Source: Eublepharis macularius (lineage: Eukaryota; Chordata; Lepidosauria; Squamata; Eublepharidae). From it: 64,000 nucleotides of DNA. Under the pieces are notes generated by a model. The model ran no database searches. It was not told where the DNA came from and was given only the letters and a program-made list of their open reading frames with translations. How positions within the stretch are numbered: position 1 is the first letter of the stretch; every line of letters begins with the position of its first letter. This document shows, in pieces, positions 12,801 through 45,700 of this stretch. The stretch lies in the NCBI RefSeq assembly GCF_028583425.1, contig NC_072807.1:36213001-36277000 (forward strand). Reading direction: 5' to 3'. The translations under genes and the position numbers were made by a program.

Positions 12801-15800
12801 ATCAAGACTTTGAATACTATTCCCAAGATTCTAGAACCAAATGGGCACCAGAAAATGCTTTGTCAAGGGCCAGGGCGCCTGCAGGTGCCCCCTTAGGCAC
12901 TAGAGTCTAAGCTCTTTGGCATCGCGGAGAGATGGATCTTTAAGTAAATGCGTCTAAAGGCTTGGAGCACTGGAGAAGGAGACTCCCAAGAATGTGGGCA
13001 AGGCAGGCCAGAAGTGACTGGTGCGCTTGGGTGTTTTGGGACTGTTGCAAAGGGCGTGGATTAATCTCTTCCTCTTTCATGTGCGCAGTCTACACGATCC
13101 TGGATTGCATCTACAATGAGGCCCAACAGACGTACTACGTCTTGGATGTGATGTGCTGGCGGGGCCACCCTGTGTACGACTGCCAGGTACTCTGTCCCCC
13201 CACTTCTGCCACCTGACAGACAGTGTGTCATAGTGGTTATAGTGTCTAGGATCGGGGAGACCTGGGTTGGAATCCCCACACTGCCGTGATGCTTGTTGGG
13301 ACGACCTTGGGCCAGTCGCCCTCTCTCAGCCTAAGCTACCTTGCAGGGTTGGTGTGAAAAAAACTTGGGGAAGGGAGAGTTATATATGCCACCTTGGGCT
13401 CCTTGGAGGAATAGATGGCTAAAAACGCACATGAGGCTACTAGTCCCTAAGGAGCCTGTCTTCTCTTTTCTGCAGACGGATTTCAGATTTTACTGGTTTC
13501 GTTCCAAAATGGAAGAAGAAGGTGATCTGGAGGAGAAAAGTCGACTGAATCCAGTAAGTTCTTTTTTCCCCCACCAAAATATGCAACATTTTAATTTTAA
13601 TCTGGTAAGAGATTACTTTATCCTCTACCTGGCGTTCCTGGATGCAGAAGTGTTACAGGGTCCTACTTGGATGAAAACTCGAACCTTTTGGAAGTTTCAA
13701 GAGGGTGCACTATTCCTTCTTTAGCAGCTGGTGAGATTCAGACTATGCCTGGGGTATTTCTTTTATTTAATCTGTTTATAAAAAAAATGAATATGTAAAA
13801 GGAAACCAGTTGTGTTCTTCCCCAGGGATGGCTATTTTTCCAGAACATGTTCTGCTTGCAAAAGAAAGAAAGAAAAAACACCAAATCTGGCCATCACGGA
13901 ACTCGTCCGACTTCTGTAACAATTGGGGAGCTTTCACATTTAGCACATTTTAGTGTCTGTCTTAAAAATTTACCCATAACAGCCGATTCCCGTGGTAGTC
14001 TGTGGACATAACTTGAATGGCGGGGGCTGAAATGCATTTCTCTGTTCCTGAAAAGCCTGGGCTTGCATTCAGATGTCACAAGAGACCAGGGTTTATTTAA
14101 ACTGTCTCTTGGATGGAAAGGAGCAAGAATCCGGTAGCACCTGTAAGACTAAAAACATTTGTGATAGGGTATGAGCTTTTGTAAGTCACGCTTTTTATCT
14201 GAAGAAGTGAGCTGTGACTCACAAAAGCTCATACCCTACCACAAGTTTTGTTACTCTTATAGGTGCTACTGGACTCTTGCTCTTTTCTACTGTACCGACT
14301 AACGCGGCTACCCATCTTGATCTGTCTCTTGGATAACGCACTCGGCTGATCCTTCAAGACAGCTTGTCTGCTTCTGGGGTTCTTTCTCCCCTCTCAGCTG
14401 GAAGGGCATCCGTTGCCCATGTGCTGTGGTCCAGTCGACATGGTGTTACTCAACAAACCTGTTCTGTGAATTCGGACATTTCAAAAAAACCACAATTGGT
14501 AGAAACAGAGGCTAAAAATAAATTTTAAAATCCTGGGTTGGTATCAGCCAACAACACTCCCCCTGCAGTTTGTCGGACCATCTGCATTCAGACATAGCTA
14601 TGAACCTGGGTTTGTCAGAAAGTTGCTTACAAACATGTCTGAATGCACGTCTTCCACTTGCTGCAGTATGCTGTAGAGAAATATGATTTCAAGATTCCTT
14701 TGGCGGAGCCTGTGCCTCTTCCATGTTAGAGGAAGTAGAGGTGTCCTACACAAGGAGTTGTTAACATTTGAAATTGTATAATACAGGTTGCCATATTGTT
14801 ACTCTGAGAAGCTCACAAACAGAGCATGAAAGGAAAACAGGCTATCCTTGCTCTTTGAACACTAGCTGCATGTATTGAGAGGTATACTGCCTTTAACCAT
14901 GGAGGATTCATTCAGCTATTGTTCAGCTGGCTTTCTCATGAGTGTTCCACGTGCAAGCTATTTCTCTGACCCATTGTGGCCTAGCAACTAGGATCTGGGA
15001 GTCCCTGGTTCAAATCCGCTGCTATGGAAGCTCTCTCTCAGCCAAACCTACCTCACAGGGCTGTTGTTGTGAAGATAAAATGGAGGAGGGGAGAGCTACT
15101 TTTAGTCCCCATTGGGGAAACAAGCAAGGTATATGCATCTAAATTCAATTAATTTTTCCTCCTCTTCCAGTTCCGGTTTGTGGGCCTACAGAATTACTCC
15201 TGCAGCACAGAAAGTTTGTGTGAGGTTCTGGCCACGGACTTCCCCTTTGAGGTAAGCAACCTTCAACATTCTTTTCAAGGCCCTGAGCCTCCCTTGTTCA
15301 GAGAAGGAGTGACCCCGTGTGGATAGTATTGCTAAACAGTGTTGCTTTTGGGGCTCAGAGTCCCCCTCCCACTGCCAAATTAAACAAACAAATGAAGCAC
15401 GGCCGAGCCATAAGTCTGGAACGGCTTTCAAAAATAATAACACACAATGGTTGTTGTGGGTTTTCCGGGCTGTATTGCCGTGGTCTTGGCATTGTAGTTC
15501 CTGACGTTTCGCCAGCGGCTGTGGCTGGCATCTTCAGAGGTGTAGCACCAAAAGACAGAGATCTCTCAGAGATCTCTGTCTTTTGGTGCTACACCTCTGA
15601 AGATGCCAGCCACAGCCGCTGGCGAAACGTCAGGAACTACAATGCCAAGACCACGGCAATACAGCCCGGAAAACCCACAACAACCATCGTTCTCCGGCCG
15701 TGAAAGCCTTCGACAATACATCAATAACACACAAATTAAGGACCAAATCGAAGAAGGAATTGAAGCAACAGGCATCAACTCAGAAAAAGAAAGAAAAAAA

Positions 15801-42700: not shown

Positions 42701-45700
42701 TTCCTGGCCTGCCTCTTGCTCTAAGAAAATTCAGCATAATTCCTGAATTCCGCGTTTGGCCTGGACCTTTGGAAAAGCAGCAGGTTTCTCCCCAGCCGGT
42801 TTGTTTGGGAGGGCTTGGCTGGTTTCTGGAAAGGAGGATTTGGTAGGACAGAGGAAGGAGTTACGGCGGCGTTCCTGCCAAGCAGAGGGTTTTATGCAAA
42901 GGAACACAACCCTCTTGTTTTTGTGTGACTCACTTCTTAAGTATGTTTGCTCTTCAAATGCGCAAGTACTCGGGCTGTTTAAAATGAAAGAAAATACAGT
43001 CTCAGCTAGAGAGGCCTCCAGCTAAATATGTGACTGGGGGCTTCTGATCCATGTGTGAACTTTATGTCCTCGGCATCTCGTGTACTCGGCATCTCGTGTC
43101 CACCGACCAACTTTCCCCTTTCCAGCGGCAACCCCCTCGCTTGCATCTTGAGACACTAAAGAATGCTTCCTTTCAACAAAGAAGCGTCAAGTGTGGGCCC
43201 ATTTGCAGGAGACAAAATGGATACCGAATGTGGCCTGGCCTGCCACTTTTCCCCTGCCACCCCAGCCTTTATTCTTCCCCCTGCTGGGGTAGGAGATCCT
43301 CATTTCCAGCACGGACAGGTCCGGAATTGGGGTGATGGTTGGAGTGACAAGCAACTGATGGGGGAGTTGGGGGATCCCGCGGAGCTAGTAACTGGAGATT
43401 TGGGAAATTGGGATTGCATCTTTATTGTAGAGTCTTTTTAAGGCCTTAGGCCCATAGTTGTCTTGCCACCTCAGATAGCTGATCTGTAAATTGAGTTGTA
43501 ATGCTGTTGAATGCCCTAGAGTCACAAAGCACCTTGCAGATCAGAAGAGCTGCAGAAGCGGCAACCTATCGTAATAAGATAAGACATCTGTAAACTGTCA
43601 TGTACCCTGACCTGGATAGCCCAAGTGACCTTGATCTCATCAGATCTCAGAAGCTAAGCAGGGTCGGCCTTGGTCAGTAATTGGATGGGAGACCTCCAAG
43701 AAACACCAGGGCTGCAGAGGCAGGCAATGGCAAACCACCTCTGGTAGTTTCTTGCCATGAAAACCTCACCAGGAGTTGCCATAAGTCAACTGTGTCTTAA
43801 GGGCAGTCTCCACCACCACCAGCAGCAAACTGTCAGGCAGAAGAATATTTTTATGTAGGCAAAAAGCCCAGAAGAATTAGTCATGTTAGTCTGTAGTAGC
43901 AAAATAGTAAAGAGTCCAGTAGCACCTTTAAGACTAACCAACTTTATTGTAACATAAGCTTTTGAGAGCCACAGCTCTCTTCGTCTGATGCATCATCGGC
44001 TTTCGAAAACCACAGCTCTCGTCATCACATGCATTGTCAGCTTTCGAAAATCATAGCTCTCTTCGTCAGATGCATCGTCAGCTTTCGAGAACCACAGCTC
44101 TCTGACGATGCATCTGACTAAGAGAACTGTGGTTCTCAAAATCTGACAATGCATCTGATGAAAAGAGCTGTGACTCTCGAAAGCTTATGCTACAATAAAG
44201 TTGGTTAGTCTTAAAAGGTGCTACTGAACTCTTTACTATGTAGGCAAAAGATCTGATGAGGAGGAAGTCAGTAAAAATCCTTGCTCTGAGCTAAGCTACA
44301 AGCGACGCCTGACACAGGTTGGACACTTGTCAGCTTCCCTCAAGTTTTGATGGGAAATGTAGGCATCCTGGTCTTGCAGCTGTAATGGAGAGCCAAGCTG
44401 CAAGATCAGGACGCCTACATTTCTCATCAAAACTTGAGGGAAGCTGACAAGTGTCCAACCTGTGTAAGGTGTCACTTGTAGCTTGGCTCTCTGTCTCGAA
44501 AATCATCTCCAGGTGGCCCCCGGGCACCTTTATCTGCTTGGTCCCCTTCTACTTTCAGTGATTCCTGAATTCAGTGGAGATATGAGTTATGATTGTCTTA
44601 GTGGGTTTTTTTATAATGTAATGTTTTGTGCGATCTTTGACAGCTTGATGCTTGCCACTGCAAATATATAACATGGACAGTACTTGTACTGTCCATTTTT
44701 TTTATATATAGATATTTTTTTTATATAGATTCATTCCTGTTTCCAGAACAGACCCCAAAACACGTCTCTTTGCTGCTGTGGAAAGGAAGGATGTGGAAAT
44801 GTTTTCCCACTCAGTTGTCCGGGTGATGTGGTGGTGTGCCTTCATTTTCAGTGTACCTCCACAACAGCTCAGGAAGACTTTTACCTTATTGTGTTAGGCT
44901 TTCAAAGGCGGTGGGGGCATGCCTCGTCTCTTTTGGAAACATGGTGGGGATTTAAGACATTGATTGCCTTCTCTGCTTCAGTCTGCCTTGTTAGTCTTAC
45001 ACATTGACTCCATTGCAAGCTGCTTGTGATTAGACCACATCCTTGGTCTAGTCAATTTCACATTCAAATAGCATCAGGGAAGGAAAGGCCAGAAACTGTG
45101 ACAAATTGCCTTCTCCCCTTCTGTCTGCCTTGTTAGTCTTACACATTGACTCAATTGCAAGCTGCTTGTGATTAGATTACATTCATAGTCTAGTCAATTA
45201 CACATTCATTCAAATCGCATCACGGTAGTACCAGAAATTGTGCCAGATTGCCTTCTCCGCTTCAGTCTGCCTTGTTATTCTTACACATTGATTAGATCGC
45301 AAGCTGTTTGTGACTAGACCACATCCTTGGTCTAGTCAATTTCACATTCATTCAAATAGCATCAGGGAAGGAAAGGCCAGATCATCAGACAAACAGGATT
45401 TTCCCTATGCCCCCAGCCTTTTGCATGAACACACATAGGAAGCTGTCTTCTACTGACTCAGACCTTTTCTCTATCAAGCATTGTCTCATCTGACTGGCAA
45501 AGGCTCTCTAGGGCTCTCTAGGTCTTTCACGTCATCTACTTCCTGATCCTTTTATCTGGAGAAGCCGGGGGACGTTCTGCATGCCTTATCCGGGACCTTC
45601 TGCATGCCAAACAGATACTCTTCGGCTGAGCCACATCCCCAATTCACTTCTGTGTCATTACGATTTTATTGATGCCAGATCATTATTGATGGAGCGGCTT

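Follow-up and report, generated by a model that had tools for sequence, protein, structure and literature searches.

Hammerhead motifs in foldback repeats of Eublepharis macularius, very probably the remains of Penelope-like elements

The window analysed here (64 kb; C18:36213001-36277000 of the 2.24-Gb genome of Eublepharis macularius) contains several repeats, many of them foldbacks, that share the layout of a hammerhead ribozyme. Our results make it very likely that these repeats are dead insertions of Penelope-like elements (PLEs), together with relatives in which no coding part was seen, and that their leader carries a minimal hammerhead of the dimer type. The layout, the counts, the pair changes at the level of families, the PLE anatomy and the link of one family, family C, to a GIY-YIG reading frame were all computed here. 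A first-pass annotation of the window had described six hammerhead-like copies and had pointed to Penelope-like carriers, and this attribution is borne out by inverted pseudo-long terminal repeats (pLTRs), tails on one arm, target-site duplications and the one family that is joined to a GIY-YIG frame.

Results

The copies present the CTGANGA and GAAA core around a three-way junction, with AAAA in place of GAAA in some copies and a damaged core in others. Our strict descriptor consisted of CTGANGA, zero to two extra bases, a stem II of 4 bp or more, GAAA (one change tolerated), a palindromic 4-nt helix III that starts from the last A, one base and a stem I of at least 3 bp. It found five matches in the window (14199, 15597 and 23125 on the plus strand, 15537 and 26436 on the minus strand), whereas the random expectation, obtained from 60 first-order Markov sequences of window length, is 0.017 matches per 64 kb. 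Seven further strict matches were found in a 200-kb sample of twenty evenly spaced 10-kb pieces, all from contig C1. One exact 36-nt motif of family A (a label of our own, as are those of the other families) has 463 copies in the genome, as compared with 0 for the reversed control.

In the textbook hammerhead core no base separates A9 from the first pair of stem II. A relaxed descriptor that did not require stem I, asked for a stem II of at least 5 bp and allowed zero, one or two extra bases returned 27 matches (seven in the window, eight in the C1 sample and twelve in loci L001-L030 outside the selected 36-mers), and exactly one extra base was needed in all 27. The extra base that had been noted after CTGANGA in all copies is therefore constant, and it departs from the textbook core in every match examined. 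Helix III, a loopless 4-nt palindrome, is unusable within one molecule, which agrees with the earlier assignment to the dimer type in that it fits published hammerheads that act as dimers. Insertions into the core have been reported after A6, near C3 and within GAAA, and the part of that source drawn on here names none after A9 (PMC3088659). The extra base would mark a hammerhead variant if the ribozyme figure for PAc, a Poseidon-clade PLE of Anolis carolinensis (PMC11167929), agrees with the text of that paper.

The families differ in their cores, with CTGAAGA-A-GTGAG...CTCAC in family A, CTGACGA-A-GAGAGC...GTTCTC in family B, CTGAAGA-T-GCCAGC...GCTGGC in family C and CTGAAGA-A-GGGAGT...ACTCTC in family E; family D comprises degenerate relatives. 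The family A hammerhead of the window (14196..14233, plus strand) reads TAT, CTGAAGA, A, GTGAG-CTGTGA-CTCAC, AAAA, AGCT, C, ATA, with the final A of AAAA doubling as the first base of AGCT. It lies in a foldback insertion that resembles an inverted solo pLTR (14102..14334), with a tail on the right arm only and a 13-bp target-site duplication, CTGTCTCTTGGAT (14102-14114 and 14322-14334). The Poseidon/PAc-like foldback insertion of family C (15436..15734) likewise has a tail on the right arm only and is bounded by a 12-bp target-site duplication, AATAACACACAA (15436-15447 and 15723-15734). Its plus-strand hammerhead (15594..15634) reads CCT, CTGAAGA, T, GCCAGC-CACAGCC-GCTGGC, GAAA, ACGT, C, AGG, and the descriptor also picked out a mirror hammerhead on the minus strand of the left arm (15500..15540).

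Family B is represented by a plus-strand copy with two 41-nt hammerhead units (23080..23207, cores at 23084 and 23125), in which stem I follows a cleavable base in the second unit only (GCTTATGC), and by three foldbacks. The foldback at 26349..26560 has a minus-strand core at 26436 in which GAAA has become AAAA, and in the one at 28139..28291 the minus-strand core at 28174 is damaged (CAGACGA). The third (43868..44260) has 41-nt tandem units on both arms, with cores at 44069, 44028 and 43987 on the minus strand and at 44114 and 44155 on the plus strand; the final unit of each arm ends in GCTTATG, and G occupies the cleavage position of the inner units. The family E hammerhead (32771..32810, minus strand) reads CTGAAGA, A, GGGAGT-TTTG-ACTCTC, GAAA, AGCT, C, and a degenerate family D copy (29303..29342, plus strand) retains CTGAGGA, an extra A, GAAA, AGCT and a stem I of GTAT/GTAC.

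The six copies of the first-pass annotation do share one order on the strands given for them, namely CTGANGA, extra base, stem II region, GAAA or AAAA, AGCT or ACGT, a base and stem I. The helix III palindrome is AGCT in five of them and ACGT in 15597, and the reported loss of GAAA in some copies is seen as AAAA at 14199. Under strict criteria the list holds for 14199, 15597 and 23125 and fails for the other three. The core, stem II and AGCT are perfect in the copy at 32806 on the minus strand (32800 in the annotation), which forms only 2 of 4 pairs in stem I. Stem II, said to be preserved, is so in most of the six; it is damaged in 44155, where the first pair is mismatched, and in 29307, where 2 of 5 standard pairs mean that it is not formed. 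Missing from the list were the minus-strand cores at 15537, 26436 and 28174 and the tandem units at 43987, 44028 and 44069 (minus) and at 44114 and 23084 (plus).

Pairs were counted on 38 rows of families A, B, D and E, drawn from 81 rows with a 17-nt middle. All selected family A 36-mers but one were left out, as were five of the nine L007 units and rows judged by eye to be foreign because they had no family tail or similarity, for example 33244 on the minus strand, which has an intact core and GAAAGCT and only 3 of 5 stem II pairs. Family C was excluded from the counts and compared with the others by anchors only, since its 3′ half came out misaligned when it was aligned together with families A, B, D and E. 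Paired cells amounted to 79.5%, as against 73.3% in shuffles and 23-48% in slid controls, and the covariation score was 0.280, as against 0.179 in shuffles, of which 0 of 500 scored as high, and 0.017-0.098 in slid controls. Change on both sides was seen in five pairs and was common in two of them. Stem II pair 15-28 is AU in 19 rows, UA in 12, GU in 5 and other in 2, and by anchor comparison family C has C-G at this position; stem I pair 3-40 is CG in 13 rows, UA in 12, UG in 2, GC in 1 and other in 10. The compensating changes claimed for stems I and II are thus present, as few events at the level of families. The annotation had named two outcomes that would speak against it, a lack of covariation and a family consensus without the core; what was found is pair change on both sides and a core that is present in the families. 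A covariance model built from the same 38 copies, R1, had 29 matches at E<1e-3 in the window and the 200-kb sample, 13 of them inside the window and 20 of them seeds of the model itself. None fell on a family C hammerhead; the stem-loop of this family is 3 nt longer.

A blast search with single-copy queries gave 62 elements, or 61 after exclusion of one at the end of L037, and 25 of these are foldbacks. The two flanks share a repeat of 9 bp or more in 12 of the 25 foldbacks and in 6 of the 36 other copies, and the same was found in 21 of 3000 mismatched flank pairs (0.7%) used as a control. The distal tail stands on exactly one arm in 24 of the 25 foldbacks, on both arms in none and on neither in one (L017), where the outer ends were set by local alignment, the tail classes were assigned by eye from these ends, L016 was counted as tailed though short, and some shorter arms stop before the proximal site. 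The right arm of L032 has no tail, as a repeat with a longer slice indicated. Inverted pLTRs with a tail on only one of them are described for PLEs in the part of PMC3846280 consulted, the tail has been identified as the stretch between two reverse transcriptase (RT) start sites (PMC11167929), and PAc has been reported to have both target strands cleaved and extended in vitro (PMC11167929). Compared with these published PLEs, the one-arm tails and the duplications make our foldbacks fit inverted solo-pLTR PLE insertions.

Two observations on family A concern the ends and the arrangement of its copies. With regard to the idea that 5′ ends of copies or array junctions might mark cleavage in vivo, the 5′ ends cluster a few bases upstream of CTGAAG, away from the expected cleavage site, a cluster that may be biased because loci L001-L030 were chosen for an intact motif. 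At C2:8353096-8353327, three exact family A hammerheads lie on one strand exactly 98 bp apart. The proximal RT start lies at roughly this distance from the motif, which suggests head-to-tail template jumping.

The coding part was encountered on the minus strand of L040, in a copy that is broken and 5′-truncated. A GIY-YIG match (PF01541, 25.1 bits, cut-off 22.6) falls there in a stop-to-stop frame whose end is at 1528. The core of the family C hammerhead begins at 1449, with 78 nt between the two, and the copy continues past the hammerhead into codons. Judged from its sequence, the order reads as the end of the open reading frame (ORF), the pLTR and the start of the ORF, as in PLEs. A second GIY-YIG frame at L040:6042-6857 (minus strand), which scores 22.3 bits and narrowly misses the Pfam cut-off (22.6), apparently belongs to another PLE type, and genome-wide 78 GIY-YIG matches were obtained with 150 of 3593 candidates scored. 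A long open frame, of 722 aa, lies at C3:101997536.

In the family C copy of the window an ATG at 15603-15605 is made up of A9, the extra T and the first base of stem II. The cleavage expected at 15631/15632 lies, counted on the sequence, 26 nt after this ATG, and in Anolis PAc the hammerhead cut is placed 26 bp after the start codon (PMC11167929). Because this distance matches the text on PAc, the extra base of family C (15597) is read here, by analogy, as the T of the ATG that opens the PLE reading frame. The extra base of families A, B and E is A, so there is no ATG in these families, and their extra A looks retained.

Five tandem arrays of family B were found in the 355 kb examined, which include L007, a locus chosen for its family A motif. 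They have eight 41-nt units at L007, four at L032, two at 23084/23125, and two and three on the arms of 43868-44260. The base at the would-be H17 is G in 13 and T in 1 of the 14 inner units, and in 5 of 5 last units it is T followed by the ATG of stem I. The inner units mostly keep CTGANGA, stem II, GAAA or AAAA, and AGCT. The elements at L007 and L032 have flanking repeats of 9 and 10 bp, respectively. Going by these sequences, we put forward with little confidence the idea that in family B a PLE hammerhead was turned into a 41-nt array with several catalytic cores and one cleavable site, in which an inner unit might serve as the enzyme half in cis. Such a unit could pair its AGCU palindrome with that of the last unit, in which case a second RNA would no longer be needed.

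The remaining features of the window lie outside the hammerhead copies. An exon-like stretch with splice-like borders (15171-15251) matches snurportin-1 in solved structures (E 4.2e-08), which places the surrounding copies near or in introns of the snurportin-1 gene; a second open stretch (23323-23400) may be the next exon, and its own search gave no snurportin match. A 5S rRNA-like stretch at 43606-43721 (Rfam 40.1 bits, cut-off 38) is probably a 5S-derived short interspersed element (SINE). The tRNA-like stretches at 45557-45640 and 22059-22127 (minus strand; Rfam 37.1 and 30.9 bits, cut-off 29) are probably tRNA-derived SINEs, and ARAGORN found no tRNA gene at either. A long near-perfect hairpin at 44328-44450 mimics a microRNA precursor, with Rfam scores for mir-30 and mir-74 below cut-off; it resembles a small palindromic transposon and is unrelated to the hammerhead copies.

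Discussion

We infer that priming on both target strands, cleavage, and a role of cleavage in the processing of tandem transcripts belong to the history of these repeats. A PLE reverse transcriptase, primed on nicked target DNA, would begin at one of two fixed internal sites of the RNA and run to its 5′ end, leaving a leader or pseudo-LTR piece, and priming on both target strands would yield a foldback with a tail on one arm and a short target-site duplication. The leader would carry the minimal type I hammerhead, whose active core would cut after H17. Because helix III is a 4-nt palindrome, two copies or the protein of the element would be needed for an active core; the PAc ribozyme cuts only with protein present (PMC11167929). 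Cleavage would then serve the processing of tandem transcripts.

A number of results weigh against this account. The Rfam hammerhead match that might have been expected from the annotation was not found in a scan of the whole window or in two short stretches, and RF00163 had no match over the genome, which says little, since the same model was silent in all 14 control genomes. These copies escape the Rfam hammerhead models and will thus go unnoticed in annotation. Families A, B, D and E showed no reading frame, and the start-codon reading rests on the single damaged copy at L040 and on the text of the PAc paper. A duplication of at least 9 bp is lacking in 13 of the 25 foldbacks and 30 of the 36 other copies. 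Pair changes are mostly inherited within families, which makes independent events few, and on the 38 rows neither further pair types (345 of 500 shuffles) nor pairs with a change on both sides (195 of 500) exceeded the shuffles. RNAalifold gave zero consensus pairs on the 38 copies. When the six copies were folded singly, only 15597 clearly outfolded its shuffles (2 of 200 as good); 14 of 200 shuffles were as good for 14199 and 26 to 164 of 200 for the other four, and in folds of two copies other structures were preferred over the double hammerhead in seven of seven cases. Finally, cleavage mutants of PAc still insert in vitro and RNA-seq shows no ends at the cut site (PMC11167929), which leaves a need for cleavage unsupported.

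The preference of two-copy folds for structures that are not the double hammerhead, mostly extended duplexes, would be understandable if the hammerhead layout were a by-product of palindromic foldbacks, with the pairing reflecting inverted-repeat symmetry and no ribozyme involved. Many copies do lie within foldbacks, and the motif itself is partly palindromic. However, the motif also occurs in one-armed copies such as L020, L030, L039 and L045, CTGANGA and GAAA occupy unpaired positions, pair types change on both sides between families, and Markov sequence hardly ever yields a match (0.017 per 64 kb), so that we regard a by-product as highly improbable. It also seems unlikely that the frame-less families A, B and E are retrozyme-like and spread as small self-cleaved circular RNAs. 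They are short non-coding units with type I hammerheads, and the 98-bp spacing of the three family A motifs at C2:8353096-8353327 and the 41-bp arrays of family B recall animal retrozymes, which the part of the literature drawn on presents as tandem repeats with type I hammerheads. The same part of the literature gives them canonical hammerheads with loop-loop contacts, in repeats some 150-450 bp long, whereas the copies here combine a minimal motif with PLE tails and inverted arms.

A further alternative, which we hold to be possible though doubtful, concerns only the origin of the foldbacks, which could have come from self-priming (snap-back) of one complementary DNA and not from priming on both target strands. 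In the part of PMC3846280 consulted, palindromic PLE junctions are read by the authors as self-priming on an antisense template, and the junction between the two family C arms falls on one and the same leader position in L036 and the window. Yet in most cases the shorter arm stops at about the same point, which fits the proximal RT start site and would be surprising for a random snap-back end; PAc extends both strands in vitro (PMC11167929), and the foldback at 43868-44260 has three units on one arm and two on the other.

Among the closest published parallels is PAc, in which the hammerhead stands at the junction of pLTR and ORF with the start codon at stem II, the cut is 26 bp after the start codon, the RT start sites are early in the ORF, and the endonuclease is of the GIY-YIG type (PMC11167929). 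The copies described here differ in being broken and mostly foldback, and they are likened to PAc by described layout, not by sequence identity. The inverted-pLTR Penelope of Adineta vaga, as far as the part of PMC3846280 consulted describes it, offers a second parallel, from which our copies differ in being short pLTR-like pairs in inverted orientation that enclose no ORF. Animal non-LTR retrozymes share non-coding repeats with type I hammerheads and, in amphibians, a requirement for dimers; they differ in their canonical hammerheads and in tandem repeats of 150-450 bp (these points are from part of PMC7229834), as compared with the minimal motif, the PLE tails and the tandem spacings of 41 and 98 bp seen here.

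The first-pass annotation conveyed a sense of novelty that does not survive, in that minimal PLE hammerheads acting as dimers are already published. According to the parts of the reviews drawn on here, the hammerheads of PLEs are minimal, of type I and arranged in tandem, and may work as dimers. The PLE/Terminon hammerheads of Cervera and de la Pena 2014 and Lunse et al. 2017, as partly relayed by these reviews, have minimal stems and dimer action and resemble ours in having no usable monomer helix III and in occurring in pLTRs and in tandem. The families as such, the constancy of the extra base and its explanation by a start codon, and the arrays with one cleavable site are possibly new, and earlier papers may cover some of this.

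Our results add to the known link between self-cleaving RNA and Penelope elements an animal genome that is dense in copies (7 strict matches in the 200-kb sample). The constant extra base, which in family C is explained as part of a start codon, suggests that the same stretch of sequence serves both the ribozyme core and the start of translation. Should the arrays with one cleavable site be confirmed, they would offer a natural means of doing without dimers.

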